Origin: Synechococcus sp. RSCCF101
GTDB taxonomy: Bacteria > Cyanobacteriota > Cyanobacteriia > PCC-6307 > Cyanobiaceae
DNA: 64,000 bases
NCBI RefSeq assembly: GCF_008807075.1
Contig: NZ_CP035632.1
Location: 1,860,001 to 1,924,000 of the forward strand
Reading direction: 5' to 3'
In this document: positions 3,349-48,110 of the stretch, one piece after another
Layout of the letters: each line of letters starts with the position of its first letter
How positions within the stretch are numbered: the first letter of the stretch is position 1
The notes under the pieces: generated by a model
Database searches by the model: none
Told to the model about the DNA's origin: nothing
What the model saw: only the letters and a program-made list of their open reading frames with translations
Program-made: the position numbers and the translations under genes

Positions 3349-4486
3349 CCATGACCACCCACTCTCATAAGGCTTGGACCGATAAAGGGGGTCACGTCAG
3401 GACTACAACCTGCTGTTCAGGTGGTTCGTCGGCCTCAATCCAGACGATCCCGTCTGGCATCCGACCACCTATGGCCTCCGGCCGACTTCGTCTACACCAA
3501 GAACCGGGATCGGTTGCTCAATGAGGACCTCATGGCCCGGTTCCTCGAACTCCTGCTGGCCTCACCCGAGGTCAAGCCGCTGCTGAGTTCCGAGCACTTC
3601 TCGGTCGATGGCACCCTGCTGCGGGCCTGGGCATCCCACAGCTCTCTCGAGCGTCTGGACGGAGTGGATGACGGTGACGGTCCACCACCGCCCAGTGGTG
3701 GCCATGGATTTGGTGGGGCTCCCGCGAAAGGCCGCAAACGGACCAGAGGTGATTTCAGGGGGCTGCTGCTCTCCAACCGGACCCATCGATCCGGCAGTGA
3801 CGCCGATGCGCGGCTGTTCCGCAAATCCAGCGGCACTGGAGCGTTTCTCAGCTATCTGGGTCATTGCCTGATGGAGAACCGCCATGGCCTGGTGGTCGCC
3901 AGTGAAGTGACCCGGGCGGATGGCCATGGGGAACGAACCGCTGCGCTGCGGATGGCACAGGCTCTGCCGGGTACTCACCAGAAGACTCTCGCCGCGGACA
4001 AGGGTTATGACACCAGGGATTTTGTGGCAGGTGTCCGTTTTGCCGGCGTCACACCGCATGTCGCCCAGAACAGCGGCCCGCGTCGCCGCTCCGCAATCGC
4101 GGGCGAACCGTCCGCCATACGGGCTACGGCCAATCGATCAACGCCAGGAAGCGGATCGAGCAGGTGTTTGGCTGGATCAAACAGGCTGCGGGGCTGCGGC
4201 AGCTCAAGGCCAGAGGCCGCTCCAGGGTCGGCGCAGTATTCCGGCTGCATGTGGCGGCCTACAACCTGATCCGTCTGGCCAACCTGCTCAGCCCGAGGGG
4301 GGCGCTGACATGAAACGGGTACAGCAAACCGAGAAGGGCAGATCAGGCGCCCGCACCACCGTGCAGAGGCCAGGAGACCCCGCCTGCTTTGCAGGACAAC
4401 ACTGCCGATTAGCGCAGCCGAAGGTCCGGTCAGAACAAACCGGAATGGCGAGGCTGGAATTGGAGGCTATTTCAGCAGCCTCCTAG

Positions 4487-4730: not shown

Positions 4731-6145
4731 GGGCTTCCGGAGAAAGACCAGACCCGCTGCGCTGCAACGAGTCCGAGGAGCTTGTCGCAGTAAAATGCTG
4801 GCAATTCGGCGCATTCCGGCCGAAAAGCTGCCCAGAGTTTTCCACATGTACCGACGTGAGCATCGTCATCAGCTCTCGTTTGAGGATTTCTTCCTGCCAT
4901 TCGGCGGCAAGAGCTCTCTGGAGATAATCGCTGGATCAAGCTCGCTGAGCTGATTCCCTGGGATGAGCTTGAGGACGACTATGCCGCCCAGTTCTGCAAG
5001 GGCTTTGGAGCACCCGCCAAGCCCTTCCGCATGGCGCTTGGAGCTCTGATCATCAAGGCGCGCATGGGACTCACCGATGAAGAGCTGGTCGAGCAAGTCA
5101 AGGAGAATCCTTATCTCCAGTTTTTCCTTGGTCTGGAGGCCTATCAGTACTCTGCTCCATTCGATCCATCGATGCTGGTCCATTTCCGCAAGCGATTACC
5201 GGAGTCGGTGGTGAACGACTGCAACGAGCGGATCGTGCGACATGGATTGAATGTCATCCAAGCTGCGGCTTCCAGTGATGACGAGGATCCTGGCCGCGGT
5301 GGTGGGTCTGTCAGCGGGGGCGAACGGCCGCCCCAGCCAGACACGCCATCACAGAACCAGGGCACGCTTCTGATTGACGCCACCTGCGTCCCGGCCGACA
5401 TCCGTTACCCAACCGATCTGTCTCTGCTCAATGAAGCCAGGGAAGTCACCGAGCGGCTGATTGATGCGATGCACCCGCAGGTCAGGTACTGCTTTGGCGG
5501 CAAGCCACGCACTCACCGCAAGAAAGCCAGACAGCAGTTCCTGGCGGTGGCCCGGAAGAAGCGACCCCGCATCAGCACAATCCGCAAGGCCATTGGGCAG
5601 CAACTGGGTCACCTGGAGCGCAATCTGGCCAGCATCGATGCCCTGATCGCCTGCGGCGGGTGCCTTCTGGCCGCAGGCCGCCACAGGTACCGCAAGCTGC
5701 TGGTGGCCAGTGAGCTGGTCCGGCAGCAGAAGATTCTCCATCACTCCGGCAGTCGCAGCATCCCCGATCGCATCGTCAGCCTGGTTCAATCTCACATCAG
5801 ACCAATCGTTCGAGGCAAAGCCAGGAGCAATGTGGAATTCGGAGCGAAGATCTCAATCTCGCTGACTGGCACTGGATTTGCGTTCCTGGATCGGCTCAGT
5901 TATTCCCCCTACAACGAAGGAGAAGATCTCAAGGGTCAAGCCAGAGCTTACCGGCGCCGATATGGTCATTATCCAGAAGTTATCTGTGCCGATCAGATCT
6001 ATCGAACCAGGGCGAATCGTGCCTTCTGCCGGCGTCATGACATTCGACTGAGTGGCCCCCGCCTTGAGGTGGTCTGGTTTTTCTGGACAGGTCCCATCGT
6101 TAACCTCTGAGGCGGGGCACCGCCCCTGAGAAGGGGCTCCCACCA

Positions 6146-6433
6146 ATGAGCAAGCGCCGAACCCACAGCCCTGAGTTCAAGGCAAAGGTCGCCATGGAGG
6201 CGATCAGCGGCCGCAAAACGATCCAGGAGATCGCCGCCGACCACGCGATTCACCCGATCCAGGTGAGCCAGTGGAAGAAGCAGCTCCTGGATGGAGCGAG
6301 CGACCTGTTTACCAGGGGCAAGAAGAGCAAGGACAAGGAGGACGGTCAGGCCAGGGAGGCGGAGCTGTTCCAGCAGATCGGCCGCCTTCAGATGGAGCTG
6401 GAGTGGCTCAAAAAAAAGTCTCAGCTCCTGTGA
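6146..6433 (+). CDS. IS-E OrfA (IS3-family HTH protein)
   Basis: 95 aa, MSKRRTHSPEFKAKVAMEAI onward. It has an HTH at about residues 5-50 (IQEIAADHAIHPIQVSQWKK) and a C-terminal zipper helix (about 68-92). The gene ends in a run of eight A residues (6410-6417) just before the TGA at 6431-6433. The run is a plausible slippage site, but OrfB downstream is in the same frame as OrfA, so the role of the run is unclear here. Confidence 0.85.
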   Translation: MSKRRTHSPEFKAKVAMEAISGRKTIQEIAADHAIHPIQVSQWKKQLLDGASDLFTRGKKSKDKEDGQAREAELFQQIGRLQMELEWLKKKSQLL

Positions 6434-6944
6434 GGCCATGAACTCCGCAGCCTGGTCGATCACGACCACAGCCAGCTCAGCATCAGCCGGCAGTGTGCCC
6501 TCCTGGGTCTCCCACGATCCACGCTCTACTACCGACCAACACCGGTGCGGCAGTCGACGCTACGGATCATGGCCAGGATTGATGCCCTCTACCTGGAGGA
6601 TCCCTGCAGCGGCAGCCGACGGATCGTGGCCTACCTGGCCAGGGAAGGGATCCCGATCAGCCGTGACCGCGTGCGAAACCTCATGCGCCGCATGGGTTTA
6701 CGGGCGATCTACCAGAGACCTCGTGTCAACCGACATGCGGAAAGTCCTCACTGCCGACACGAAAAAGTCCTCACTGGATGCGGCGGTCAGCGACCCTTCC
6801 GTGGGCTGATGGTCTGTTGTCTGCTTGGTGCTGATGGCTGCTGTGCAGCGGTCGTTCGTTGTGCTCATCGGTGTTGGTCGTTGGCTGGTGACTGGTGACT
6901 GGTCCTGAGAGTCGGTTGCCCCAGGTGGGGTGACGGTTCCGCCC

Positions 6945-7784
6945 TCAGGACTTCTCTTCTGGGGATGGGGAAGCACTGCTGTTGGCTCCGGAGCTGGGGG
7001 CGGTGGCCTGCGGTGAGCGGATCAGGCCCGATCGGCGCTTTTCCCTGAGCCGGTAGCTGTCGCCCCGGATCGTCAGCACATGGCTGTGGTGCAGCAAGCG
7101 ATCGAGGATCGCGGTGGCGACCACCTGATCACCGAACACCTCTCCCCACTCCGTGACCGCCCGATTGGAGCTGATCAGCACGCTGCCCTGCTCATAGCGG
7201 CGGGAGATCAGCTGGAAGAACAGGTAAGCGGCGTCGTGCTCCAGGGGCAGATAGCCCAGCTCGTCGATGATCAGCAGCCTCGGCTTGCCGTAGTACGTGA
7301 GCTGCCGCGCCAGTTCGCCCTGCTGCTGGGCCCGCGCCAGGCTGCCGATCAGCTCGGCGGCGGAACAGAACAGCACGCTGTGGCCCAGACGGATCGCCTC
7401 CCGTCCCAGCGCCACCTCCAGAGGGGTCTTCCCCACCCCGGGTGGGCCGAGCAGGACCAGGTTGTCGCCGTTGGCGATCCAGCGGCAGGTGGCCAGCTCC
7501 CGGATCTGGGCGGGATCGATCGAGGGCTGGGCCTCGAATTCGAATCCCCCCAGCGTCCGGACGCATGGGAAACGGGCCAGGCGCATGGCCATCTCGAACC
7601 GGCTCTGGTCCTTGCGGCTCACCTCGGCACCACACAGCCAGGCCAGGGCCTCCCGCAGGTTGTCGAGGCGGTCGCGGATGGCGGTGAGCCGCAGGCGGGT
7701 GAGCATCGCCTCCAGGTCAGCCACCAGGGCGGCCAGTTCCGCCGGTCTCTCCAGCGGTGCGGTGGTGGTGCGGCTGCGGTTCAT
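6945..7784 (-). CDS. istB: IS21-F1 IstB, transposition helper ATPase
   Basis: 279 aa AAA+ ATPase that assists IstA in target capture. Walker A is GPPGVGKTPLEVALG (about residues 115-130) and Walker B is LLIIDELGYLPL, followed by the sensor-like SSNRAVTEWGEVF. The start ATG at 7784 overlaps the IstA stop (ATGA), the usual coupling in IS21. The HTH-free N-terminal segment with ERPAELAALVADLEAMLTRL is also normal for IstB. The C-terminal tail is Ser/Ala/Pro-rich and dispensable-looking. Confidence 0.95.
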   Translation of the reverse strand: MNRSRTTTAPLERPAELAALVADLEAMLTRLRLTAIRDRLDNLREALAWLCGAEVSRKDQSRFEMAMRLARFPCVRTLGGFEFEAQPSIDPAQIRELATCRWIANGDNLVLLGPPGVGKTPLEVALGREAIRLGHSVLFCSAAELIGSLARAQQQGELARQLTYYGKPRLLIIDELGYLPLEHDAAYLFFQLISRRYEQGSVLISSNRAVTEWGEVFGDQVVATAILDRLLHHSHVLTIRGDSYRLREKRRSGLIRSPQATAPSSGANSSASPSPEEKS

Positions 7785-9082
7785 GCCTCCACCTCCGTCA
7801 GCACGGCGGCGTAGTCGCTCAGGGATCGGGCCAGGCTGGAGGTGCGCACCGCTCGTGTCGCCGGAGGACCAACAGCGGGTGTCGCCTGACACCTGTCGGG
7901 GATGGCTGGCTGCAGGGAAGCGCGTGCCTGCTGCAGCTGCTCGGCCGGCAGCAGGCCCTGCCAGTGGCTTCTGATCACCTGACGGCAGCGGTGGTTCGCG
8001 CTCTGGAGTGGGTGCTCCGCCACGATCCGGCCCCGGTGCAGCAATCGCACCGTCTGATGGCGGACCTGCGCCGTGATCCGCTGGCCGATCAGCTGCTGGG
8101 GAGCGGAATACCAGTTCCCCTCCAGCTGAATGCAGCAGTCCTTGGCCACCACTCGCTTCTGTTCCCGCTCAGCCAGGAACGAGGGCTTGCCGCACAGCGG
8201 CCTCAGGGCACTGGCCTCGTCCCGCTGGAACCGCTCCAGGGGCCGTTCTCCGGTGGTGCCGTGACGACGGACATCCGCCACCTCGCGCATCCACCAGGCC
8301 AGATGGGCCTCCATGGCACCCCAGCTGCGGAAGGTGTGTCCGGCCAGACCGCTGCCCTTGACGTAGCGCACCCCTCGCTCGTCCTTGCCCTTGGTGCGAG
8401 GCCGGTAGGGGCGGCAGGCACGGGGCGTGAACCCCCAGTGCTCGGCAAAGGCGAGGAAGGTGGGATGAAACACCAGCTCACCGCTGGCGGGATCGTGCCG
8501 GCGGACCAGGGCGCGGGCGTTGTCCACCAGCACCTGCTCGGGAATGCCGCCCCAGTGTCGGAAGGCCTCCTCCATCGCCTGCAGCCAGTTCGCCTGCCGC
8601 TCATGGCCGTACGGCCGCACCACCAGACGGCGCGAGTAGCCGAGCGTGAGCACGCACAGGTGCACCCGACGGCGCTCCCCACCAATGCTCACGGCGCACT
8701 GGCCAAAGTCGGCCTGGAGCTGCCGGCCGGGTGGCGTCTCGTAGCGCACGGTGGCCAGCTGACGGATCCGCAGCTCGCGGCGCCAGGCCGCCACGGCCCG
8801 TTCCACCGTGCGCTGGGACACATCAATGCCCTTCTGCCGCAGCAGTTCCTGGCGGAGCACCTCGGCATTGCCGCGATGCTGCTCAAACTGCTCGCGCAGC
8901 CAGGCGATCTGCTCATCGAGGCGCCGGCTGCGCCGGGGCTGGCCGTAGGGCTGCCAGCCGCCCTGGCGCAGATAGCGGCGAACGGTCCGCGGACAGCAGC
9001 CCAGTTCATGGGCGATCGTTCGCTGGCTGAGGCCGCGGGCATGGAGCTGCAGCATCCGCTCCACCTCCTGGGGTGTTTCCAT
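7781..9082 (-). CDS. istA: IS21-F1 IstA transposase
   Basis: 433 aa from ATG 9082 (METPQEVERMLQLHARGLSQ). The frame is open further upstream, but that stretch is the terminal-repeat region. An N-terminal HTH (LSQRTIAHELGCCPRTVRRY) is followed by the rve-type core: Asp in LQADFGQCAV, Asp in QVLVDNARALV, Glu in RTKGKDERGVRYVKG. A C-terminal beta-barrel region follows (GNWYSAPQQLIGQRITAQV). It ends in a 4-bp overlap with istB. Confidence 0.95.
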   Translation of the reverse strand: METPQEVERMLQLHARGLSQRTIAHELGCCPRTVRRYLRQGGWQPYGQPRRSRRLDEQIAWLREQFEQHRGNAEVLRQELLRQKGIDVSQRTVERAVAAWRRELRIRQLATVRYETPPGRQLQADFGQCAVSIGGERRRVHLCVLTLGYSRRLVVRPYGHERQANWLQAMEEAFRHWGGIPEQVLVDNARALVRRHDPASGELVFHPTFLAFAEHWGFTPRACRPYRPRTKGKDERGVRYVKGSGLAGHTFRSWGAMEAHLAWWMREVADVRRHGTTGERPLERFQRDEASALRPLCGKPSFLAEREQKRVVAKDCCIQLEGNWYSAPQQLIGQRITAQVRHQTVRLLHRGRIVAEHPLQSANHRCRQVIRSHWQGLLPAEQLQQARASLQPAIPDRCQATPAVGPPATRAVRTSSLARSLSDYAAVLTEVEA

Positions 9083-10275
9083 CGCGCCCTCGCCTCGGCG
9101 GTCTGCCCTGGCTGTAGTGCTCCTGGCAGCAGCAGTGATGGGGGCCGCCGAACCAGGCATCCGTTCGGCTGGCGTGAGCCTGGGGGCAGGGATGGATGGC
9201 GGAGTCACCGGTTCCGAGTGAGGACCTTTTCGTGTCGGATCTGGTGACTTTCCTCCTGTCGGCTGACACCTCGAACCACGATTCCAGGCGAGCCATCGGA
9301 GCGATTCCCCTGCCTGGTGGACATCGATGAGATCCACACCGTGGACCAGGTCTGGGCTACCGATATCACCTACATCCCACTGCAGAAGGGCTTTCTCTAT
9401 CTGGTGGCGATCATGGATCTCCACTCAAGGCATGTCCTCAGCTGGAGGCTCTCCAACAGCCTTGACACGGAGTTCTGCCTGGATGCCTTGGAGATGGCCC
9501 TCTCCGATGGGCGAAAGCCAGAGATCTTCCATTCCGATCAGGGCTGCCAGTTCACCTCTGCTGAGTTCGTCGCCAGGCTGCAGAAGGAGGGAATCAGGAT
9601 CAGCTGGTCCGGCAGGAAGCGCTGCTACGACAACATCCTGGTCGAGCGACTCTGGAGGACGCTCAAGCATGAGGAGGTCTACCTGCATGCTTACAGCGAT
9701 GGCTGGGAAGCAGAAGTCAGCCTGGCCCGCTTCCTGTGGAGGTACTGCAATGTGAGACCCCACAGTGCCATGGGAGGCAGAACTCCCAATCAGGTCTACA
9801 CTGAGACCGAACCCAGTTCCTCCCGTCCGGGGTTAACGATGTCAGGGGCTAAGGCTGTCCAATAAAAGGCACCCACCTCACCTTGGAAGGCCCAAGAATG
9901 ATCCTGATCTGGTGGCAGCCGAGAGACAGCAATTCGCCGTAGACCAGCGGCAGCGCAACGCCGTGGAGGGCAAATTCGGCCAGGGCAAACGCCGCTTTGG
10001 CCTCGCACTGATCCGGGAGAAGCTGGCAGCGACGCAGGGTTCAGCGATTGCGATCAATGTGCTGGTGATGAACCTGGAGAAGCTGCTGGAGCTTCTTTTT
10101 GCCCTTGTCATGCTTTGGCTACAGGTTCTCCTGGGGACAGAGGTCGTTGATGGAAGCAACTCTGCGGCCTCTGATTACAACGCGGTGCCGGCCTGATGAA
10201 CAGCCGTGCAGCAGAACTGGCGACCGTCCACTGCGCTCTTGCTTGGCGTGTGGGCTTTTCAGGAAGCCCTACAAA

Positions 10276-10359: not shown

Positions 10360-11223
10360 TTACAGCCGAGAACGCCAGGTCTCAACGAATGGAGCCAACT
10401 CGCTCTCTTGCAGTCCAAACTCCTCGAGACTGAGGGGAACAACTTGGGACCGGGCAAAGTCAATAATCTGACAATGATCTGACCCACAATGGGGAGTGTC
10501 ACGTGTCAGAAAGTCTAGACTCACTTGGATCGATGTAGTCAGTCCCGCCAGCTCAGGCTCGGCAGCCAGGAGATCGCCAACTTGCACGTTGGCTCCGAAT
10601 TCGTGGATGAGACATTTTGTGTCGAGATTCAATCCCACATTGGCTATGCCATCAGCCCTGAGGGCCTTCACGACATCCAAAATATCTGACAGGGTGTTAC
10701 AAAATTCAGCTCCCTGATCGCTTGTGTTGTGCTCTAGAGAAAGAGTATTCTCGGGGCCAAGGATGGTTGCCATCCAGCCGCAATTGGCAGTGAAACGTTG
10801 CTTTAGCTCGAGATCAGTAAGGGCTGAATTTAGCCGTTTCTTTTGCCCAGGACTACCGAGAATAAAAACTGAGCACCCTGTCGTCTTACCCAAGGCCCTG
10901 AGTCCTAGCATCCGCGTGAGGAGCGAAGGTTGATTGATTAGGTCATCTGCTAGGTTGATCTCTAATCCGTAGGTGAGAGACTGTACTGTTTCCACAGTAC
11001 TGCGCTGCATTAGGTGACTCAAGGAATGCTGTACTGCACCAGAGTGTAGCTCTATATGTTGATCCCAATCCCTGCCTAGAACCATAGTAGGAACGAGCTC
11101 AACCCGTGTGGTTCGAGCCTGTGCCATCACCCTATCAAATCCCGCCCATGTCCACTCAGGCATTAGCCTCACAAGGTTTATCATTGAGAAGCTATAAGGC
11201 AGCTCTGTAGTAGATGGGCTCAT
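10360..11223 (-). CDS. TIM-barrel sugar isomerase/epimerase-like protein
   Basis: 287 aa, third gene of a minus-strand cassette. It resembles the xylose isomerase-like TIM-barrel superfamily (sugar phosphate isomerases and AP endonuclease family 2): NLVRLMPEWTWAGFDRVMAQ at the first strand, LSLEHNTSDQGAEFC, NVGLNLDTKCLIHEFG and VVPLSLEEFG, with Glu/Asp/His placed as expected of metal ligands at strand ends. It probably acts on a sugar or sugar derivative made by the two upstream enzymes. ATG 11223 overlaps the upstream stop (ATGA), with AGAGG about 8 bases upstream. The gene is AT-richer than the 46-64 kb region. The exact substrate cannot be read from the sequence. Confidence 0.75.
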   Translation of the reverse strand: MSPSTTELPYSFSMINLVRLMPEWTWAGFDRVMAQARTTRVELVPTMVLGRDWDQHIELHSGAVQHSLSHLMQRSTVETVQSLTYGLEINLADDLINQPSLLTRMLGLRALGKTTGCSVFILGSPGQKKRLNSALTDLELKQRFTANCGWMATILGPENTLSLEHNTSDQGAEFCNTLSDILDVVKALRADGIANVGLNLDTKCLIHEFGANVQVGDLLAAEPELAGLTTSIQVSLDFLTRDTPHCGSDHCQIIDFARSQVVPLSLEEFGLQESELAPFVETWRSRL

Positions 11224-11993
11224 AGGTGTGACCTCTGCGCTTCGATGAAAGGCTTGAGATGAAGCTTCAGTGCATCATCAGCCGAGTACAGATATTGGCT
11301 TCCTTGAGGTCCGTGAATCGTCTTTACGTTGTAACCTGTCTTGGGCAATTGCCAATTCAGACGCTCATTGATGTCGGCAAACCACGTACTCAAGATGGTG
11401 GAGGTGGCCACGGGCTCGCTTACAACATTCAGAATCCGACCATGGCTCAGCAGCTTCGCTTGATCAAGGACTGCGGCAAGATGGTCCAAGTTAAACCACT
11501 GAAAAGCCGAGTTTGGATTGATTTGATCTAAGTTATTGTTGTTGAGTAGGTCGTAGATGATATTCTTCTTCAAGCCATGGCCAACTAATGCCGGCAAGCG
11601 GATAATGCGTGACTGGTTCCCAAATGTATCTATCACAGTTTGCTCCAACATGGATCTATGCCGACCGTAGGGGTGGCTATCTTTGGACGGTGGGCTGTTT
11701 TCATCCACCGCTGATGGCGGATCATAAACATCCACTGTACTGAACAGAACAAAGAAGCCAGTACAGGCAAGGTCCCTGCAGGCCTCGATCAGATTCTCCA
11801 CCTCCTGTCTGTCCTGCTCGGGGTTCTGATTGGCCCACCATTTTTTCGCTTGCGGCGCGGCACAATAGATGTCGTCGAAGCATTGGCCTGCGAGTGCCCC
11901 TATCTCCCGTCGGCCGACGCCAGTAGCTTGAGGCAACTGGCGAGCGAGATTACTGCCCACAAAGCCGCGGTGACCGATGATGAGAGATTTCAT
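11220..11993 (-). CDS. NAD(P)-dependent epimerase/dehydratase (extended SDR)
   Basis: 257 aa. The Rossmann motif GHRGFVGSNLARQL is at residues 8-21. The conserved central part includes FFVLFSTVDVYDP (usual Thr/Ser-rich strand) and then HPYGRHRSMLEQ, the active-site Tyr position. The usual YxxxK Lys is replaced by Arg (YGRHR). The protein is shorter than typical NDP-sugar epimerases (about 310-340 aa). Start ATG 11993 overlaps the FAD gene stop by 4 bp, with GAGGA 9 bases upstream. Probably modifies a nucleotide sugar or related intermediate of the surface glycan. Confidence 0.8.
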   Translation of the reverse strand: MKSLIIGHRGFVGSNLARQLPQATGVGRREIGALAGQCFDDIYCAAPQAKKWWANQNPEQDRQEVENLIEACRDLACTGFFVLFSTVDVYDPPSAVDENSPPSKDSHPYGRHRSMLEQTVIDTFGNQSRIIRLPALVGHGLKKNIIYDLLNNNNLDQINPNSAFQWFNLDHLAAVLDQAKLLSHGRILNVVSEPVATSTILSTWFADINERLNWQLPKTGYNVKTIHGPQGSQYLYSADDALKLHLKPFIEAQRSHL

Positions 11994-13015
11994 TCGGTTT
12001 CGTCCTCGATCAAAGCCATCACTTCGGCTGCAGCATAGAATATATTATCAACTTTGCCAGAGAGGCACTTGATCAGCCGACCATACCTTTTGACGTAACA
12101 GCTACGGTCATCATCATGACCAAAGGGCTTGGTCTTTACGCACAGTTGGGGATCGAGATATTCGTAATCGTCAAGAAAACCAGGATAGTATCTCATTATC
12201 TGTTTTTCCATCAAGAGCCGCTTGAGATTGATGTCGTGGCTACTGAGGGTGGCAATGGCATGCAAAGCCTCATCGCTGGTGCCATGCTGGGCAATGGGGG
12301 TGTAAGGAACGCTGCTTAGAGTGAAGATCCCCGGTTTCTCGGTGGGGTATAACGAGCAAAGAGGACCGTCAACGAATGTGTAAGCACGAGCCAGGCTGCC
12401 AGCCTCTTTTTTTCTGTAGTAAAGAAGTATCGTGCTCTCAAAGAAAAAATTCTTGTCTGGCATGAGGTGTCCCCACGTACAGTCGATGCAGTAATCAAAT
12501 GATTCACCGTTTACTCTCACGCGGTCATCGTCCATGCTCACAGTGGCCTCCACGCCGAGCTCAATGGTGTCGGGCAGATGTTGATAGAAATGCTGCCGAG
12601 CGCGATCGATCATCAGCACTCTCTCTGCGGTTACCACGGACCCGCAAGGATAGCTGATCTCGACTGGATGCTCCTTCTCCACGAAGTCTAAGCCTGAGGA
12701 CATCATAATAAGCTTGTACGTTGAGAAGTCTATCAGCGAATCACCCTTTGGAACAAGGTAATAGTTTTCGGGGATTGGCTCAGTGAGTTGTTGATATCGT
12801 TCCAGAAAACGAAAAAACCCATCTCTCGATTGCTGTCTAGTGCGGAAGTTGCGAGCGTAATGGAAGCCAAGGTGAAGTCGGAACTGATTGTTGCCTGAGG
12901 CAAATGTGAGTATGTCGTCAGACTTCTCAAATACCCTGATCTCCAGCCCAAGGGCTTTCAGGCGGGTAGCAATGTGCAGGCCGTAGAAGCCAGCTCCAAT
13001 GACTGCAAACCTCAT
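11990..13015 (-). CDS. FAD-dependent oxidoreductase (DAO-like)
   Basis: 341 aa, first gene of the cassette. The N-terminal dinucleotide-binding motif GAGFYGLHIATRLKALG (residues 8-24) is followed by the acidic strand end VFEK, typical of FAD-binding amino-acid-oxidase-like proteins. HLGFHYARN and FDYCIDCTWGHLM fit the flavoprotein fold. A C-terminal segment contains FYAAAEVMALIEDE. Substrate unknown. The tight ATGA coupling to an SDR and a sugar isomerase suggests oxidation of a sugar or amino-sugar intermediate. No strong Shine-Dalgarno sequence is seen before ATG 13015. Confidence 0.8.
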   Translation of the reverse strand: MRFAVIGAGFYGLHIATRLKALGLEIRVFEKSDDILTFASGNNQFRLHLGFHYARNFRTRQQSRDGFFRFLERYQQLTEPIPENYYLVPKGDSLIDFSTYKLIMMSSGLDFVEKEHPVEISYPCGSVVTAERVLMIDRARQHFYQHLPDTIELGVEATVSMDDDRVRVNGESFDYCIDCTWGHLMPDKNFFFESTILLYYRKKEAGSLARAYTFVDGPLCSLYPTEKPGIFTLSSVPYTPIAQHGTSDEALHAIATLSSHDINLKRLLMEKQIMRYYPGFLDDYEYLDPQLCVKTKPFGHDDDRSCYVKRYGRLIKCLSGKVDNIFYAAAEVMALIEDETE

Positions 13016-13341
13016 GAAGATAATCAGCTGGCTGACCAGCGCAGGGGGGCGAATTAGGGAAAATTGACTGTTTTGCTCAGGATGCTACCACTGAACTGCA
13101 GAGAGCGAAAATGGCTATGGTGGCTGCCAAGTCGAATTGGCCGTCGACCAGTAGCTTTGTGAATCGAGTGTTCTCCTTTTACAGCTGGGTCAGCCGCCAC
13201 TTCTTCGCGGATAGGAGGCTGCTGAAATTGCGGCCGAGATAGGAGCTAGTTGTTCTGTCTCAGCAGGTTGTTCAGTGGTCAATGAGGTGTGAGGCCGCTA
13301 CGGGTTGAGGTGCGACCCACCAACCCAGACCTCACGCCTCC
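13016..13341. other. Intergenic region with an IS-B end fragment
   Basis: 13016-13207 shows no gene or clear promoter. About 13211-13260 begins GAGGCTGCTGAAATTG, matching the left end of the IS-B family, and is also closely similar to 32546-32590. The stretch 13280-13341 is probably the upstream end of the IS481 element that follows. Confidence 0.5.
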
Positions 13342-13793
13342 ATGCATAGCCATCCGAATGCCCGCCTGACTCAGCGGGGTCGTCTGCGACTGATCTGCCA
13401 GCACCTCGACCAGGGCCGGTCACTGCCGGAACTCGCTCCTGACGCTGGGATCAGCCTCCGCTGCGCCTACAAGTGGCTGGCGCGCTTCCGCGCAGGCGGT
13501 CCAGCGGCACTTGCGGATCGGCGGAGTGTTCGGCGCCACCAGCGCCGGACGCTCGATCCGCAGCAACTGCAGAAGGCCGTGGCTCTCCGCCGCCAGCGGC
13601 TGCATCTGCGCCACATCGCCCGGCTGCTGGCGGCTCCCTTCTCCACCGTTGCCCGAACCCTCAGCCGGCTCGGCCTGGGGCGACTCCGCAACCTGGAGGC
13701 CAGGCCGCCGGTGCAGCGCTACGAGTGGGAGCGACCGGGTGACCTGATCCACGTCGATATCAAGTCCCTGGCCCGCTTTCCGGAAGGTGGGCC
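13342..13793 (+). pseudogene. IS481-family transposase, N-terminal part
   Basis: About 150 aa: MHSHPNARLTQRGRLRLICQ, the HTH segment LPELAPDAGISLRCAYKWLA, then YEWERPGDLIHVDIKSLARF, which holds the first catalytic Asp of the IS481 core. The remainder is replaced at 13794 by the end of IS21-H. A complementary C-terminal fragment of the same family lies on the other strand at 31976-32540. Confidence 0.85.
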
Positions 13794-14233
13794 TGTCCGG
13801 CGACGATTAGATAGGCGGGACCGCGCAACTACATCGGCGGGTCTCAGGACGCGACAACAGGGCTCCGCTGCTGGTCTGGAGCCCCGCGATGCCCGCCCCT
13901 CTGTCGTTGCGGATCAAGGAGCGGTACATGGCCAAACGGGCCGATGGGCTGAGCCAGCAGGTGGCGGCCGATGCGGTGGGCATCTCGCTGCGCAGTGCGC
14001 AGCGGATCGATCGGGGTGAGCTCCAGCCCGAGGGACAACGGCAGCGGCGGGCCAGGCACTGGCGTACCCGGGCCGATCCCCTGGCGGACGTGTGGGAGAC
14101 CGTGCTGGTGCCCATGCTCCAGAAGGCACCGCAGCTGGAACCCCACACACTGCTGCTGCATCTGGAGCCCCCGCTTTCAGGAAAGTTGTCACCCCTCTCA
14201 ATCGCACACCCGGGGGCTTGATGGAGCAGTTCA

Positions 14234-14623
14234 ATGCGTCGTTACAGCGAGGCCGTCAAGGCTGATGTCAAGAGACGAATGAGCCCGCCCGAGCGACAGA
14301 GCGTGGCTCGGATTTCCGAGGAGCTGGGCATCCACGTGGTGACCCTCTACAACTGGAGAAAGGCCTGGCGTCTGCAGGGAGAGGTGGTGCCCGCATCCGA
14401 GAGGGAGCCAGAAGGCTGGAGCGCTGCCGACAAGTTCACGGTGGTGCTGGAGACCGCTGGCCTCAACGACACCGAGCTCGGTGCCTACTGCCGTGAGCGG
14501 GGGCTGTTCCCTGAGCAGGTGAGCCGCTGGCGTCAGGCCGCCACCGATGCCAACGCCGCGCCAGTGCTGCCCCCGCTTTCAGGAAAGTTGTCACCCCTCT
14601 CAATCGCACACCCGGGGGCTTGA
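14234..14623 (+). pseudogene. IS-I1 OrfA, partial duplicate
   Basis: The first 112 residues match the complete OrfA at 14636 (MRRYSEAVKADVKRRMSPP onward). The frame then runs into the terminal repeat of the following copy (PPLSGKLSPLSIAHPGA) and stops. It retains the HTH but lacks the zipper helix and frameshift site, so it would give a short HTH-only protein if translated. Confidence 0.8.
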
Positions 14624-14635
14624 TGGAGCAGTTCA

Positions 14636-15142
14636 ATGCGTCGTTACAGCGAGGCCGTCAAGGCTGATGTCAAGAGACGAATGAGCCCGCCCGAGCGACA
14701 GAGCGTGGCTCGGATTTCCGAGGAGCTGGGCATCCACGTGGTGACCCTCTACAACTGGAGAAAGGCCTGGCGTCTGCAGGGAGAGGTGGTGCCCGCATCC
14801 GAGAGGGAGCCAGAAGGCTGGAGCGCTGCCGACAAGTTCACGGTGGTGCTGGAGACCGCTGGCCTCAACGACACCGAGCTCGGTGCCTACTGCCGTGAGC
14901 GGGGGCTGTTCCCTGAGCAGGTGAGCCGCTGGCGTCAGGCCGCCACCGATGCCAACGCCGCGCCAGTGCTGACGAGGGCCGAGCAGAAGGATCTGGAGAG
15001 GCTCCGCGCCCGGGACCAGCGAGAGATCAAGGCCCTCAAGAAGGAGCTGCAGCGCAAGGAGAAGGCCCTGGCGGAGGCAGCAGCACTGCTGGTGCTGCGA
15101 AAAAAGTGGGAGGCCTTCTGCTCGGAGGACGCGGAAGGCTGA
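14636..15142 (+). CDS. IS-I1 OrfA (IS3-like, long form)
   Basis: 168 aa. N-terminal HTH about 20-50 (ARISEELGIHVVTLYNWRKA), a second HTH-like region about 65-105 (LGAYCRERGLFPEQVSRW), and a long basic/acidic coiled coil about 118-155. ATG 14636 is preceded by GGAG seven bases upstream. The heptamer A AAA AAG at 15100-15106 permits a -1 shift into OrfB, giving an OrfAB fusion of roughly 530 aa. Without the shift the protein ends FCSEDAEG. Confidence 0.85.
   Translation: MRRYSEAVKADVKRRMSPPERQSVARISEELGIHVVTLYNWRKAWRLQGEVVPASEREPEGWSAADKFTVVLETAGLNDTELGAYCRERGLFPEQVSRWRQAATDANAAPVLTRAEQKDLERLRARDQREIKALKKELQRKEKALAEAAALLVLRKKWEAFCSEDAEG
15100..15106 (+). promoter_or_regulatory. Programmed -1 frameshift site A_AAA_AAG
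   Basis: In the OrfA frame the codons are CGA AAA AAG. Slipping one base back on AAAAAAG joins OrfA (LRKK) to VGGLLLGGRGRLTSA in the OrfB frame. The same heptamer is at 26590-26596 and 37945-37951. It is a canonical bacterial slippery sequence of IS3-type elements. Confidence 0.8.
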
Positions 15143-16227
15143 CGAGTGCCGCGCATCGGCAAAAGGCGATCGCGTTGATCGGTGAGGCCAAGGCCAGCGG
15201 AGCCACCCTCAGCGCTGCCTGCGGGGAGATCGGCATTTCCCTGCGCACCCTCAAGCGCTGGCGGAAGGCCTTTCTGGGTGATGGGGACGGAGAAGACCGC
15301 CGTAGAGGCAGCCCTCGCCATGTCGCCCACCGCCTGAGCGAGGAAGAACGCCAGCGGATCCTGCTCACCTGCAACCAACCGGAGTACGCCTCGCTGCCGC
15401 CGGGACAGATCGTGCCCGCACTGGCCGATCAGGACCTGTTCATCGGCTCCGAGTCCAGCTTGTACCGGGTGCTGCACGCGCATGGTCAGGCCCATCGCCG
15501 GGGCCGTGCACGACCACCACAGGAGCCACGGCCTGTGCCACGGCTGCGAGCGGATCGCCCCAATGCTGTGTGGTCGTGGGACATCACCTATCTGCCCACC
15601 ACGGTGCGGGGTGTGTGGCTGTACCTCTATCTGGTGATCGACGTCTGGAGCCGCAAGGTGGTGGCCTGGGATGTCGCCGAACGAGAAGACGCGCAGATCG
15701 CCGCTGACCTGGTGGGTCGGGCCTGCCTGCGGGAGCGGATCAGCAGAGGCTGCCGCCAACCGCTGGTTCTCCACGCCGACAACGGCAACGCCATGCGGGC
15801 CGCCACCCTCGAGGCCCGGTTGGAAGAGCTGGGGGTGCTGCGTTCGTTCTCCCGGCCCCGGGTGTCGAACGACAATCCCTACTCGGAATCCCTGTTCCGA
15901 ACCGTCAAATACCGTCCTGACTACCCGAAAAGGCCATTCACCAGCAAGGCAGAGGCCTGCGAGTGGGTGGCGTCGTTCGTGGATTGGTACAACCACCAGC
16001 ACCGCCACAGCGGCATCAAGTTCGTGACGCCGGACCAGCGCCACAGCGGGGATGCGGCCGAACTCTGCCGGCGTCGTGCCGATGTCTACGAGAAGGCCCG
16101 GCAGAAGCACCCGCGTCGATGGAGCCGATCCACCCGCTGCTGGCGTCAGCCAGCGGTGGTGTGGATCAACAAGCCACCAGAAGAGCCGCAGAGGGCACTG
16201 GCCATACCATTGGGTCAGGCCGCCTGA
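15106..16227 (+). CDS. IS-I1 OrfB (DDE transposase)
   Basis: About 373 aa downstream of the frameshift site. It has an N-terminal HTH (CGEIGISLRTLKRWRKAF) and then an rve core: Asp in AVWSWDITYLPTTVRG, Asp in LVLHADNGNAMRAA, Glu in NDNPYSESLFRTVKYRP, followed by HRHSGIKFVTPDQRH. Intact to TGA 16225-16227. Translation is expected as an OrfAB fusion; the GTG at 15106 is an alternative independent start without a clear Shine-Dalgarno sequence. Confidence 0.85.
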   Translation: MGGLLLGGRGRLTSAAHRQKAIALIGEAKASGATLSAACGEIGISLRTLKRWRKAFLGDGDGEDRRRGSPRHVAHRLSEEERQRILLTCNQPEYASLPPGQIVPALADQDLFIGSESSLYRVLHAHGQAHRRGRARPPQEPRPVPRLRADRPNAVWSWDITYLPTTVRGVWLYLYLVIDVWSRKVVAWDVAEREDAQIAADLVGRACLRERISRGCRQPLVLHADNGNAMRAATLEARLEELGVLRSFSRPRVSNDNPYSESLFRTVKYRPDYPKRPFTSKAEACEWVASFVDWYNHQHRHSGIKFVTPDQRHSGDAAELCRRRADVYEKARQKHPRRWSRSTRCWRQPAVVWINKPPEEPQRALAIPLGQAA

Positions 16228-17289
16228 AGAGCAGCCCAGGAGTGACAACTTTCCTGAAAGTCACCGGAGCGGACCTTCCCCGGCCAGGAGTGGTACCGGC
16301 GCAAGCGGACCCTGCAGCGGCGTGTGGAGCAGTGGCGGGCCCTGCACGGTCCGGCGCAGGAGGTGATGTTCCTGCAGGAGCACCGGGCCGGTGTGCTGGG
16401 AATCTCCGATTTCACCCTGCTCAAGGGGGAGCCGATCACCGTGGCCGGGGAGGTTCTGGAGCACCGTCTGTTCCACTTCCGCCTGCCGTTCTCCGGCTGG
16501 TGCCATGTGGAGGTGATCCACGGCGGCGAAAGCTTTGTCGCTCTGGCCGAGGCGCTGCAGAACGCCCTGGCTCTCTGCGGCGGGGTGCCAGCGGAGCACC
16601 GCACCGACAGCCTCAGCGCCTGCTTCCGCAACCGTGACGGCAGCTATGCGGGTGCCTACACCAGTCGCTACCGGGAGCTCTGCGCCCACCCGGGTGTGAT
16701 CGGCACCCGCAACAACCGTGGGGTCGCCCACGAAAACGGCGCGATCGAGGGCCCGCATCGGCACTGGAAACACCGACTGGAGCAGTAGTTGATCCAGCGC
16801 TGCAGCAGGGATTTCGCCACCGAGGCCGAGTATCGCCAGCTGGTGTTGCAGGTCAGCGCCGACCTCAACAACCGGCCGAGCGTGCTGCAGAAGCTGGAGA
16901 TCGAGCGGCTGCACCTGCGGCCCCTGCCGGTGGAGCGCTTTGCCGACTACGACCCTGTGGTGGCGCAGGTGCGGAGCACCAGCACGATCGAGGTCCGTTC
17001 GGTCACCTACAGCGTCCCCTCACGGCTGATCGGTCAGCAGCTGACGGTGCATCTGCGCCACGACCGGCTGGATCTGTTCCTGCGCAGCCAGTTCGTGGAG
17101 ACGCTGCCGCGGCTGCATCCCCACAAAGGGCAGAAGGCGCGGCGCCGGATCGACTTCCGCCATGTGATCGAGAGCCTGCGGCGTAAGCCCCGGGCGCTGC
17201 TACGCGTCCAGCTGCAGGCCGACATCCTGCCCTCAGAGTGACGTGACCCCCTTTATCGGTCCAGGCCTTATGAGAGTGGTTGGTCATGG

Positions 17290-18126
17290 TCATGCAGCAG
17301 CTCCTTGTTGAGCTGCCTCCAGGGGCGTACGCCCCTGGAGGGCCGAATGCGGCCTGAGGGAGTTGTACTCCCAGCGCCAGCGGTCGGCCAGGATCTGAGC
17401 TTCTGGGGCTGTGGTGAACAGCTCGGTGTTGAGGAACTCATCCCTGAATCTCCCGTTGAACGACTCGGCAAAGCCGTTCTGCCACGGGGAACCTGGCTCG
17501 ATCGTGGCCGTTGTCGTGCCGCTGGTCCTGCACCAACGCCGTAAGGCGTGGGCGATGAATTCAGGGCCGTTGTCGCACCGGATGAACGCCGGTGCCGGGT
17601 AGAGGCTGGTGAGTTCCTCCAGCACGGCCACCACGTCCCTGGCCTTGCAACGCCTGCCCACTCGGATGGCCAGGCAGAGGCGGCTGTGCTCATCGATCAC
17701 GTTCAGAAACTTGAGCCGCCGGCCATCGGCCGTGGCGTCGAACTGAAAGTCCATGGCCCACACCTGGTGGGGATGCTCGGCCCTGTGGCGCCGCACTGAG
17801 CCGTCCGCTGGCCGTGCCCGCTTCTGCTTTCGGGGGGTAGGCCGCTGGAGACCCTCCTCCCGCCAGATCCGTTGCACCCGTTTGTGATTCACGCTCCAGC
17901 CCTCGCGTCTGAGCACGCGGTGGGCCATTCGCCGGCCCCAGCGGATGTGGTCGGCAGCGATCTCCCTCAGCCGGCGCCGCAGCTTGGTCTCCTCGGCCCC
18001 AGGGACCGTGCCGTGATGGCGTTGGGTGCTGCGGTTCTGACCCACAACCCGGCAGGTGAACCGCTCCGATGCCCGGTAACGCTGCTGCAGGACGAGTACC
18101 GCCCTGCGCCTGCGTTCCGGGCTCAA
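17290..18126 (-). CDS. IS-C2 OrfB transposase
   Basis: Same architecture as IS-C1 OrfB with all three catalytic positions kept (AMDFQFDATADG, RCDNGPEFIAH, FAESFNGRF). Differs from copy 1 by scattered substitutions (e.g. RTSGTTTATIEPG) and encodes the same protein as copy 4. Expressed by frameshift or CTG start at the OrfA stop. Confidence 0.85.
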   Translation of the reverse strand: MSPERRRRAVLVLQQRYRASERFTCRVVGQNRSTQRHHGTVPGAEETKLRRRLREIAADHIRWGRRMAHRVLRREGWSVNHKRVQRIWREEGLQRPTPRKQKRARPADGSVRRHRAEHPHQVWAMDFQFDATADGRRLKFLNVIDEHSRLCLAIRVGRRCKARDVVAVLEELTSLYPAPAFIRCDNGPEFIAHALRRWCRTSGTTTATIEPGSPWQNGFAESFNGRFRDEFLNTELFTTAPEAQILADRWRWEYNSLRPHSALQGRTPLEAAQQGAAA

Positions 18127-18401
18127 AAGTTTCCCTCGGCGAGATCCTTGAGCATCGCCTTCTCCAGCTCGGCTTCCGCCAGCAGCTTCTTGAGTCGGGC
18201 GTTCTCCTTCTCCAACTGGGTCAGCCGTTTGGCCTCCTCGGCCTGCATCCCCCCGAACTGCTGCCGCCAGCGGTGGTAGGTCGGCTGCGTCACCTCGATC
18301 ACTCGGCAGACCTCGTTGACGGTCTTGCCCTGGGCGATCAGCTGCTCTGCAGTCTTGAGCTTGCGGATGATCTGCTCGGGCGTGTGTCGGATTCGTTTCA
18401 T
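18123..18401 (-). CDS. IS-C2 OrfA
   Basis: 92 aa HTH plus zipper protein starting MKRIRHTPEQIIRKLKTAEQ. Carries NEVCRVIEV where copy 1 has TEVCRVIEV. Intact. Confidence 0.85.
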   Translation of the reverse strand: MKRIRHTPEQIIRKLKTAEQLIAQGKTVNEVCRVIEVTQPTYHRWRQQFGGMQAEEAKRLTQLEKENARLKKLLAEAELEKAMLKDLAEGNF

Positions 18402-18607
18402 GGTGAAGTCCCCGGCCCAGTCTGGCCGGTTGAGGACTCTCATTCACCCTGGACCGGTTTCCGGGGTCCACGTCAAGAGACCTGGCGCCAGCTGTGGCGA
18501 CAGCTCCTGACGGCCCTGCCGCCGGATGAGGCGGCCAAGGTCATGGTCGATGCGCTCCATGTCGCTGCCCGTACAGACGACCTGATCGGTGTGGAGCGGC
18601 ACCAGGG

Positions 18608-19842
18608 CTGATTCAAAGTCTCATGGCATCGCTGCTCCCGGTGGCCTCCTGACCATCGCCAGCAGCGCGGTGATGTCGTGCATCACGGCCTGCAGACCCT
18701 CGCGGACGGAGTGAAATCCAGCCAGTCGCAGGAGGTTGAGTGCTGCGGTGCGCAGCGTGGCCATCACGCCTGCGCCATTGCCCCCGTAGCGGTGGTTGTC
18801 TTCTCTGAGCTGGGTATCGCGGATCCAGTGCCAGCTTTCCAGGCTCCAGCGATCACGGACCAGTTGCAGCAGGGCTTTTGGAGTGGTGCGCAGACTGGTG
18901 ATGAACCGGTGGGTGGCCTGAAACGGCTTGCCCTGGCGGGAGCCGCTGGCCTGCACTTCCACGATCCAGGCACTGCCGGGCCAGTCCGCCTTGATGTGAG
19001 CGGGTGCCTCTTTCGCCCGCAAATTCCAGGTGATGTCACGGCCGTGGCCAAGCTCGTGATCCGTTGCCGTGAAGGGGATCCGGCGCTTTCCCTGGAATTG
19101 ACTGCGGATCTGACGATCCAGCGTTCGCTGGTTGGCTTTGACCGTCAGGAGGAAGTCGGCTCCCTGCTCCTTGAGCTGCCGAAAAACGATTTCTGCGTGT
19201 GCAGCGCATCCGCTTGAACCAGCACACCACCGAGATCGAGCTCTCCAAGCAGCCTCCGCAGCACAGCCCGCTCGTGGTCCTCGCCTGTGGCGGCGCAGGT
19301 CTGCGCGATTGCCACGCCCAGGGCCGCGGAGTAGAGCGTCACCTGAGCAATGAAGGCCGAACCACCGCCAGCGGTGGGCTCGATCGAGCCCCGCAACGTC
19401 TTGCCGTCACAGACCAGCTGATCGAGATCGGCTGCACCATCAGGGATCTGAGCGATCGTCCAGTCGCGGATGGCCTCGCAGACGGCCGTGACATCCACCT
19501 GCAGGAAGAAGTATCGGAAGGCGGAATCCGACGGCGGGCGGCGGAGGTTGATCCCCAGCGACTCGGTGAGAACGCTGTGGTGACGCCGGGCAAAGCGCTC
19601 CAGATCCCGCAGGCTCTCGCACCGGCTCAGGATTCCCAGAACTGCCACCAGCAGCAGGTACCAGGCCGGGATGCGAACACCCCGACGCATCCGGGCATCA
19701 GGAATCGCCCGGAGGTAGCTGATCAGGTCGAGATCAGTTGCGGCAGAGGCGATCTGGGGCACGGAGACGAAGCGATCCCACTGACCTCAGCCCATGCTCG
19801 CAGCCATGGCAAGAGAACCTGTGCCGAACTTTGAATCAGTCC
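18608..19842 (-). mobile_element. ISAs1-family element (IS-K)
   Basis: The ends contain CTGATTCAAAGT (from about 18609) and ACTTTGAATCAG (to 19842). It encodes one frameshifted ISAs1-type transposase. Its left tip is fused to the broken IS21-H istA. Pieces of its transposase 3' end recur at 39107-39295 and, decayed, at 34409-34640. Confidence 0.75.
18621..19762 (-). pseudogene. ISAs1-family transposase, frameshifted
   Basis: The N-terminal half from GTG 19762 reads IPDARMRRGVRIPAWYLLL (ISAs1 N-terminal domain) and then LVCDGKTLRGS (catalytic Asp) and VLVQADALHTQKSF. Near 19185 a run of five T puts the frame out. The correct continuation RQLKEQGADFLLTVKANQ is in another frame, which then runs to MRAKEAPAHIKADWPGSAW and the catalytic region SLESWHWIRDTQLREDNHRY before stopping at 18621. 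Two extra T residues in TCGTTTTTCGG would explain the break. Sequencing error cannot be excluded. Confidence 0.85.
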
Positions 19843-22808: not shown

Positions 22809-22809
22809 G

Positions 22810-30272: not shown

Positions 30273-31817
30273 CTATAAGTGGTGCATCACTCGAAAACGG
30301 CTAAGAAGATCCAGCCAAAAAAGACTATAGTCTTGTCTTCCTGACGTGGACGAGTCGCCTTCTGTGCAGGCAGCACCTAGTACCCACTCGTCGTCAGCAG
30401 CGCTCTCTCTGTAGAAGCTTGACTGATATATATTGATATCGTCCTTGGCTTCAACAAGCTCTTTTGAGGCATGAACGATCAGCCTTTTGTTGCATATCCA
30501 CTTTGATTTCGCCAAGCCGGCGCCCCATGGGCTTATGCCTGTAAAGACATGCGAGATGGAAGCAACGCTTGTAAGAAGATCGCAGCCTATCGAATTGATA
30601 ATACGGCTGGAGCCAAAGACAGATTCCAATGAGGATGCATACTCAATCTCGTCATTGAGCGATATGGCCGCGTGAGACGACAGCTGTTCGCTTCCAAAAG
30701 CTGGCGAGTTCGAGCCGTCAATCAGAAACCTTGCGTCCGGCATAAGGCTAATGATCATTTCAATAAGTCGTTTAAGACCTTGCCTCTGCTCAATCCACTC
30801 CCGATTGCCAAAACGCAGAGAAATGAGAATTAACCGTCCTTCTTGAGCCGCTCTAGCAGACTTCTGGTAAATTGGTGAATGGATATCAGAACAGTGGGTC
30901 AAGGCATTGTCGAGTATTGTGGTGGCGACAGATTCGCTTATCCGTGACGCCCGAGGAGCCAGATAAATTCCAGTTTCGAACTCAAGTTCAGAGACTGACT
31001 CTGATCTTTGCTCGCTTTGTCCCTTGATAAGACTTTGAAGATTGCCATATGCCGTTCCACGTATTGAGACGTGCGCATTAGCCTGGTCTCGCAAATACAG
31101 ATCCCCCCAAATCGATAGATTATTCCAGAGATAATGACCTATGTGAGGAAAGACCTCATTTGTCACAAACAACTTCTTCTTTGGCTGACATGAGAGATAA
31201 TGAGCGTTGAGATTTAGGCTCCTATAGACATGCGACAAGCCAGCCAGCACATGCTCTCGCCCAATCCTGTCGGGCTTGCGCAGCGCATCGTATACAAATA
31301 TCTCATCGGAGTCTAACTCATGTAATTGGATCGAGCCATGCACATAGCCCTTGGGGCCAAAGTATGACAGGATCATGTGCCTGTCATTCTCGCCCTTCAG
31401 AAGCAACGAATGTAATGTTATATTTCTAGTAGCGTAGAAGATGCCCCCAGTCTTCGGATGCCTGGCAAGAATCTGCTTGCTTTTAATGAACGCTTTAATT
31501 AGGCTATTCGGACAAATTACATTGGGCGAATCACCGTCCGAAGTGCACAGCTCGACATGGTCGGGGGTGAGGAATAGTAACGGGTCGCTCATATAGTGTA
31601 GATCGGCGTTTTCGCTGAGGAGCTCCTTGTATACAAGTGCGTTTACCAACGGATAGTCAGTTACGGTTCTCCTGATCAGCCGGCGATAAAAGCTCTCATC
31701 GGTCATGGCTGCAATGCGCCTAAGTCTTGATCGCAGCTGCCCGTACCTTCTGCTCGTGGCCAGCAATCCAGCCAATGCTGACGCATCGCCAGACCGGCAG
31801 AGTTCATCAATCTCCAC
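30273..31817 (-). CDS. Unrecognised 514-aa protein, possibly glycan-related
   Basis: No family is recognised with confidence. It starts at GTG 31817. The middle part has KKLFVTNEVFPHIGHYLWNN (about 217-236). The C-terminal half has alternating strand/helix blocks (LILISLRFGNREWIEQRQGL, PDARFLIDGSNSPAF, RIINSIGCDLLTSVASISHV, FTGISPWGAGLAKSKW) that could form a Rossmann/GT-B-like half, with ISPWGAGLAKSKW as a possible donor-site loop. No signal peptide or membrane segment. AT-richer than the flanking IS, and bounded by IS on both sides. Its position between glycosyltransferase genes suggests a role in the same glycan, but this is inference. Confidence 0.5.
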   Translation of the reverse strand: MEIDELCRSGDASALAGLLATSRRYGQLRSRLRRIAAMTDESFYRRLIRRTVTDYPLVNALVYKELLSENADLHYMSDPLLFLTPDHVELCTSDGDSPNVICPNSLIKAFIKSKQILARHPKTGGIFYATRNITLHSLLLKGENDRHMILSYFGPKGYVHGSIQLHELDSDEIFVYDALRKPDRIGREHVLAGLSHVYRSLNLNAHYLSCQPKKKLFVTNEVFPHIGHYLWNNLSIWGDLYLRDQANAHVSIRGTAYGNLQSLIKGQSEQRSESVSELEFETGIYLAPRASRISESVATTILDNALTHCSDIHSPIYQKSARAAQEGRLILISLRFGNREWIEQRQGLKRLIEMIISLMPDARFLIDGSNSPAFGSEQLSSHAAISLNDEIEYASSLESVFGSSRIINSIGCDLLTSVASISHVFTGISPWGAGLAKSKWICNKRLIVHASKELVEAKDDINIYQSSFYRESAADDEWVLGAACTEGDSSTSGRQDYSLFWLDLLSRFRVMHHL

Positions 31818-34640: not shown

Positions 34641-34821
34641 CTGGAGTTCGCCTCAGTGGCGTCTCGGCGGGGTGCTAATCAACCTAGTGAGAGACGACAG
34701 TCAGCCCCCCATCATCAAACCATCCCCTTTGGAGTTGATATGTATCGCGAGCATCGCGCCAATCCTGACGGTTGACTATTGGCTCTGACAATCAACCGAA
34801 AGAAAGTTGCCAAGCGGGCTT

Positions 34822-48109: not shown

Positions 48110-48110
48110 A

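Follow-up and report, generated by a model that had tools for sequence, protein, structure and literature searches.

What do three genes that overlap end to end, coding for a flavoprotein, a short-chain dehydrogenase/reductase (SDR) and a TIM-barrel protein, make together? The question is raised by positions 10360–13015 of a 64,000-nucleotide stretch of the Synechococcus sp. RSCCF101 genome (the window; contig NZ_CP035632.1, positions 1,860,001 to 1,924,000). The trio is a widespread, uncharacterised module, probably for a rare sugar. We put the probability at about 0.55 that it is one pathway whose product is a rare sugar of a surface glycan, 4-deoxy-D-arabino-hexose in the Escherichia coli O162 type, through a proposed oxidation, elimination and reduction. 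The window holds a copy of the type called A below, in a locus broken by insertion sequences (IS), with an altered isomerase. Its genes and junctions are the following.

11990..13015, minus strand: flavin adenine dinucleotide (FAD)-dependent oxidoreductase with a DAO fold, 341 aa, encoded by the leading gene of the trio (Pfam DAO/NAD_binding_8, predicted fold, type A clade)
11220..11993, minus strand: SDR with YxxxR (257 aa; Pfam Epimerase, 89-row alignment)
10360..11223, minus strand: divergent ketose-3-epimerase-like TIM-barrel-type protein (287 aa; match to the family profile)
11990..11993, minus strand: ATGA in which the FAD stop and the SDR start overlap, read from the sequence
11220..11223, minus strand: ATGA in which the SDR stop and the TIM start overlap, read from the sequence

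Conservation and distribution of the trio

A preliminary description of this DNA had taken the overlaps to imply one pathway with a fixed stoichiometry. Both ATGA junctions were confirmed in the window sequence; a 4-bp overlap cannot show stoichiometry. The idea of a single unit was borne out, since the trio was conserved as one unit and lies in glycan loci elsewhere. Species genomes were scanned with the SDR alignment, and the best 80 of at least 323 confirmed relatives, ranked by similarity to the window SDR, were taken as loci. The same description had named lack of co-occurrence elsewhere as a ground for rejection; FAD, SDR and TIM genes were found together in 72 of these 80 loci, on one strand in 69 of the 72. 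Because the loci were picked by similarity to the window SDR, 72/80 should not be read as an unbiased rate. Eight loci were incomplete: TIM was missing from L024, FAD and TIM from L039, L042, L056 and L069, and FAD from L079, L081 and L087. Several of these lie on short contigs or on contigs that stop next to the SDR gene; L087 has 13.3 kb. The protein distances of the three families were correlated (r 0.43–0.73, 78 loci), with none of 999 permutations as high.

By record title, the trio was recognisable in 11 phylum-level groups. The window FAD protein matched 5 plasmid records and the window SDR 12, while the window TIM protein had no match in plasmids. Eight of the 12 SDR-match records were opened, and all eight loci held the three genes by profile; in one of them, L009, the TIM gene lies past a transposase gene and on the opposite strand. 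L010, the 10.8-kb Psychrobacter plasmid pA22P4, consists mainly of a sugar cassette of type B (see below) besides replication and mobilisation genes. No FAD match was found in viral contigs or phages, and no window SDR match in phages; a phage or virus origin was rejected on these results. A relative of the SDR, with 31% identity to a type B SDR, was seen at 679–1581 of MT839812.1, an unannotated 4-kb record titled 'Bacteriophage sp.'.

The trio is rare among the relatives of the window organism. At E 0.001, the window FAD protein had matches in 5 of 99 related genomes, one being its own and the rest no stronger than E 1.6e-13. The FAD profile, at E 1e-20, picked out 4 genomes among 386 of the phylum, again with its own among them, and the window TIM protein matched its own genome only among 292. 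Five cyanobacterial stretches around FAD matches were compared. G209 and G139 also carried SDR and TIM genes, and the stretch of G204 ended at a contig edge beside FAD and GT2 genes. The G031 stretch (L105) may hold a variant of the system lacking SDR and TIM.

The three protein families

The preliminary description had pointed to an Arg in the place of the Lys of YxxxK and to the short length of the SDR. Both features are present, and neither is peculiar to this copy. The motif is located as follows.

11655..11669, minus strand: SDR motif Y109-G-R-H-R113, whose final Arg stands where the catalytic Lys would be

Tyr109 and Arg113 were invariant in the alignment (89/89 SDR sequences); the substitution is therefore a family trait, and the YxxxK pair of classical/extended SDRs is absent from all 89, with its Tyr retained. 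The N-terminal glycine motif of classical/extended SDRs was present (G7, G10 and G13 in 89/89 rows). The matched length was 225–275 aa in 82 of the 89 relatives and 315–321 aa in 6. These sequences thus define an SDR family whose catalytic motif has a conserved Arg. Searches of solved structures with the single SDR and TIM sequences gave no relevant match.

The FAD protein matched Pfam DAO (29.7 bits, cut-off 27.9) and NAD_binding_8, and carries a conserved motif.

12851..12889, minus strand: FAD family motif N-Q-x-R-x-H-x-G-x-H-Y-x-R, residues 43–55 (family alignment, 84 rows)

N43, Q44, R46, H48, G50, H52 and Y53 were kept in 82 of the 84 rows and R55 in 81. The predicted model, built from 41 rows, had a pLDDT (predicted local distance difference test) score of 90.8. 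Three best fold matches effectively tie: glycerol-3-phosphate dehydrogenase with Z 27.2 over 321 residues, 3dme with 26.7 and glycine oxidase with 26.6. Profile and whole-chain fold of the predicted model both place the flavoprotein in the DAO superfamily. UDP-galactopyranose mutase, which a motif had brought up as an identity, was not adopted: the fold matches listed were DAO-type proteins, and the absence of mutases from that list is no exclusion.

The window TIM protein had no Pfam match. It matched the family profile at E 2e-12, and the TIM protein of locus L011 did so at E 5e-15, the profile having been built without both. A PF01261 match was found in four TIM relatives scanned, among them those of L007, L008 and L010. 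The family profile (26 rows) best matched ketose 3-epimerases and, lower, 3-keto-D-glucoside 4-epimerase and the dehydratase-type protein AsbF. The YcjR structure 6wn6 was also among the matches. Glu, Asp, His and Glu of the profile aligned with the three ketose 3-epimerases shown in the comparison. The window protein departs from this pattern in one segment.

10513..10575, minus strand: altered metal-site segment, in which D217 and L219 replace the family HxH and D237 replaces Glu (82-row alignment)

The two His and the Glu were kept in 80 of 82 TIM rows, the window and L011 being the sole exceptions; both are without the HxH and carry Asp at the last Glu position. E164 and D201, upstream of the segment, were retained in the window protein. 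The window TIM protein thus lacks the complete Glu/Asp/His/Glu metal site of ketose-3-epimerase-like barrels (AP_endonuc_2); a metal ligand may come from elsewhere in its chain. Because this site is altered, the window product may differ from the 4-deoxy sugar; it is probably related to it and need not be the same.

L011 also holds the trio nearest to that of the window: the identities are 84% (FAD), about 75% (SDR) and 67% (TIM), and the overlaps are the same. The nonsynonymous divergence (dN) between the two was 0.10 for FAD, 0.16 for SDR and 0.21 for TIM; the synonymous divergence (dS) was 0.96–1.87 where computable, one method being saturated and one failing for FAD. The low dN relative to dS indicates that all three genes have been under purifying selection since the two copies split. 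The L011 contig, titled Verrucomicrobiales, carries at 1942–4189 a DUF1800 gene resembling genes of the window's family. This gene matched 8 of 60 genomes, with 54–63% identity in three genomes of that family (own included) and at most 38% in the other five. Because of this resemblance, L011 may be a misbinned contig, and a recent cross-phylum transfer from the window to L011 is doubtful.

Two gene contexts and the E. coli cassette

FAD identity to the window separated the loci into two types, with the cut at 38%. Among 84 rows, two of which (L002, L003) came from the FAD search and not from the SDR scan, identity was at least 46% in 32 (own included), 37% in L036 and at most 26% in 51. In the tree, the type A FAD clade comprised 33 rows with a support of 100/100 and a long-branch warning from the tree tool. 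L036 was counted in type B, although the tree groups it with type A; it has no match to the GT2, flippase and partner profiles. The counts below include loci cut by contig ends.

Type B loci carried glycosyltransferase (GT) and flippase genes. The GT2m profile was found in 46/52 type B and 3/32 type A loci, the GT2s profile in 46/52 and 0/32, and an SMR or GtrA profile in 26/52 and 0/32. After residue 200, two hydrophobic stretches were present in 34 and three in 5 of 46 clustered GT2m open reading frames (ORFs). With its membrane glycosyltransferases and often an SMR/GtrA flippase, type B is like periplasmic O-antigen side-chain systems. Type A loci instead carried an unnamed partner protein of about 640 aa (23/32 type A, 0/52 type B; its profile was trained on 18 of these 23 loci, and L021 and L080, with two such genes each, were counted once). 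In 30 type A loci listed, with ORFs taken from the first start, 4-bp overlaps occurred at both junctions in 7, at the first in 11 and at the second in 13.

Among the window ORFs of at least 80 aa, no match to the GT2s/GT2m, SMR or GtrA profiles was found, so the window is not of type B. Its contiguous FAD–SDR–TIM arrangement, its place in the 100/100 FAD clade and its gene order, shared by 29 of the 30 type A loci counted, assign it to type A. A relative of the partner lies in the window as well.

30273..31817, minus strand: relative of the type A ~640-aa partner (E 5e-44 to its profile), 514 aa, probably a GT-B-type glycosyltransferase

This product was the sole match of the partner family in the genome, and a PDB sequence search with it gave no match at E 0.1. 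Its model had a mean pLDDT of 63.4 and was confident only in the C-terminal part, which resembled the heptosyltransferase WaaC (Z 15.1, 3.1 Å, 201 residues). By this predicted fold alone, the product is a probable GT-B-type glycosyltransferase. Type A has no lipid-carrier genes, so what its trio makes is probably a soluble donor, unless another carrier is used. The existence of one membrane-linked and one soluble context suggests that the donor comes from the trio and that the transferase can be swapped.

One of the closest known systems is in E. coli O101/O162, where genes downstream of gnd belong to the same FAD, SDR (YxxxR) and TIM families and lie beside glycosyltransferases. This cassette differs from the window in being of type B, with GT2, an SMR flippase and a multi-spanning protein, and its FAD protein is 24% identical to that of the window. 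Type B sequences were found in 7 of 5426 E. coli genomes, six chromosomal and directly downstream of gnd and one on a plasmid. One nearly identical version was present in 5 of the 5426, in the order FAD, GT2, SDR, TIM, EmrE-like, GT2, multi-spanning protein. Two of these five records, opened widely, contained wzm and wzt of the O89/O101/O162 family; the other three were opened with a 1 kb flank only. IS4 adjoined the FAD gene in 3 of the 5 genomes, being split by an IS3-family element in two, and those three FAD genes were annotated at 1074 bases instead of 1116. The plasmid pCUPF09A (L109) has a type B cassette at 11981–18840, between insertion sequences and near aminoglycoside resistance genes.

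According to passages of PMC13168486, published in 2026, O162 differs from O101 by an additional 4-deoxy-D-arabino-hexose branch, and genes directly downstream of gnd were hypothesised to modify O162 and not O101, owing to a transposon in O101. IS4 beside a shortened FAD gene in three of the five genomes fits this account of silencing. The E. coli cassette is the best candidate for the 4-deoxy-D-arabino-hexose of O162, by correlation with serotype only. The same sugar is also reported for O-antigens of Citrobacter braakii (PCM 1531) and Franconibacter pulveris (G3872). The system is thus in part already known, as putative O162 genes. In open-licence PMC papers, no description of the trio or its pathway was found, and neither was its definition by three enzymes, nor any account of the YxxxR family, of the two contexts, of the partner protein or of the TIM variant. 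The earlier statement that the trio matches no sugar pathway that could be named holds in that no characterised pathway with a proven product was found; a candidate product can now be added to it.

Proposed pathway, alternatives and the window locus

In sugar nomenclature, 4-deoxy-D-arabino-hexose is 4-deoxy-D-altrose, which differs from glucose or galactose in having no oxygen at C4 and the opposite configuration at C2 and C3. The reaction of ketose 3-epimerases takes place at C3, beside a C2 ketone; inosose dehydratase, which belongs to the superfamily of the TIM protein, eliminates water beside a ketone. In the proposed pathway, the FAD enzyme would oxidise a secondary hydroxyl, presumably at C2. 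The TIM-barrel enzyme would abstract the hydrogen at the adjacent C3, with departure of the hydroxyl at C4. The SDR would then reduce the resulting carbonyls, a 2,3-dicarbonyl. The outcome would be a 4-deoxyhexose with C2 and C3 reset, which in the E. coli O162 type would be 4-deoxy-D-arabino-hexose. Oxidation at C2, elimination of C3-H and C4-OH, and reduction would account for all changes of 4-deoxy-D-altrose in one sequence. In type B, the sugar would reach the periplasm by way of the membrane GT2, the SMR/GtrA flippase and the multi-spanning transferase; a soluble GT-B-like enzyme would use it in type A, the window included. The positions and order of the reactions, the carrier and the role of the partner are inferred. 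The suggestion of the preliminary description that the genes make an unusual sugar for the glycan is plausible. A testable pathway for a rare 4-deoxyhexose is obtained, and the same sugar chemistry may be recognised across the phylum-level groups. A further and rather doubtful proposal is that this is a widespread deoxysugar route with no nucleotide-sugar 4,6-dehydratase, combining C2 flavin oxidation, TIM elimination of the C4 hydroxyl and reduction by an SDR with an invariant YxxxR, and that in the window lineage a TIM protein active in the absence of its customary metal site leads to a further sugar.

Several observations weigh against the proposed pathway. With HxH lost and Asp in place of Glu, the elimination may not occur in the window, and the use of one SDR for two reductions is unexplained. 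L087 has SDR and TIM without FAD on its 13.3 kb, G031 has FAD and GT2 genes (4827–8233) but neither SDR nor TIM within 14 kb, and the FAD match of G048 sits inside a longer protein. Half of the type B loci lack SMR/GtrA by the profiles used. The partner is absent from 9 of the 32 type A loci, L011 included, and its relative in the window is 17 kb from the trio, beyond insertion sequences. For E. coli, the link between genes and product is the hypothesis of a review, cited second-hand in the passages of PMC13168486, two of the genomes were placed by locus genes (wzm/wzt), and O89 too has genes between gnd and ugd according to passages of PMC6128206.

Partial precedents exist for oxidation followed by reduction of a sugar. 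DprE1 belongs to a different flavoprotein superfamily, and the DprE1/DprE2 system is not known to include a TIM barrel. With DprE1/DprE2 and Rv3789 of mycobacterial arabinose, as given in passages of PMC11127046, the trio systems share an oxidase and reductase pair and an SMR-family exporter. YcjQ/YcjR/YcjS of E. coli share the oxidation, a TIM-barrel step beside the ketone and the reduction, but belong to an operon for carbohydrate import and metabolism with two dehydrogenases, and no FAD enzyme is named in the passages of PMC11543891. The three-component pentofuranose side-chain systems of C. youngae O1/O2 share a polyprenyl-phosphate sugar, a flippase and a GT-C enzyme, with an SDR setting the sugar; they differ in starting from phosphoribosyl pyrophosphate and in an SDR with YxxxK, and the paper concerned, PMC11127046, contains no terms for FAD or isomerase.

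These precedents, DprE1/DprE2 (passages of PMC11127046) and YcjQ/R/S (passages of PMC11543891), could also favour oxidation, epimerisation and reduction without deoxygenation. The FAD enzyme would form a keto sugar, the TIM enzyme, where active, would invert the carbon beside the ketone, and the SDR would reduce it to a rare hexose epimer; the window lineage would have a two-enzyme FAD/SDR epimerisation like that of DprE1/DprE2. Most TIM relatives of solved structure are 3-epimerases, and the loss of metal-site residues in the window is consistent with this course. It would, however, leave unexplained the 4-deoxy sugar that distinguishes O162 (passages of PMC13168486), and we consider it possible but unlikely. 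A decaying remnant that makes nothing would agree with the flanking transposases, the degenerate TIM site and the distant partner relative. This is improbable, given three open frames with intact overlaps and purifying selection on all three genes relative to L011, with which only a very recent inactivation is compatible. Glycine and sarcosine oxidases among the best fold matches might point to an amine or amino-acid oxidase, the trio then making an amino-acid-derived side group and no sugar. The glycerol-3-phosphate dehydrogenase match is at least as good, and the partners are keto-sugar-epimerase-like and GT genes, which makes this the least probable explanation. A sugar pathway leading to a 4-deoxyhexose in the O162 type is thus preferred.

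The genome is one 2.98-Mb contig with two photosystem II-family genes, from which the window organism is taken to be photosynthetic. Transposase genes flank the trio on both sides.

9317..9865, plus strand: transposase (integrase core) adjoining the trio (Pfam rve, rve_3)
13342..14019, plus strand: IS481-type transposase part adjoining the trio (Pfam LZ_Tnp_IS481)

The G+C content of the trio genes was 49–51%, compared with 65–66% in the 2-kb blocks 8001–10000 and 14001–16000. No terminal repeats of note were found in the repeat analysis around the trio. The glycan region at 1–46000 is split by many transposase genes of several families into islands, namely the trio, 20182–23835, 30273–31817 and 34807–36024. 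The island at 20182–23835 consists of three consecutive low-G+C genes; one product, of 605 aa, contains part of a GT2 domain, and the other two have no Pfam match above the cut-off. Beyond the islands, the window contains an RgpF-like protein (46499–48250), a 1256-aa GT4/TPR protein (50560–54330), a sulfotransferase (54549–55484) and a GT1/GT2 protein (57574–59895), which together form a larger surface-glycan region.

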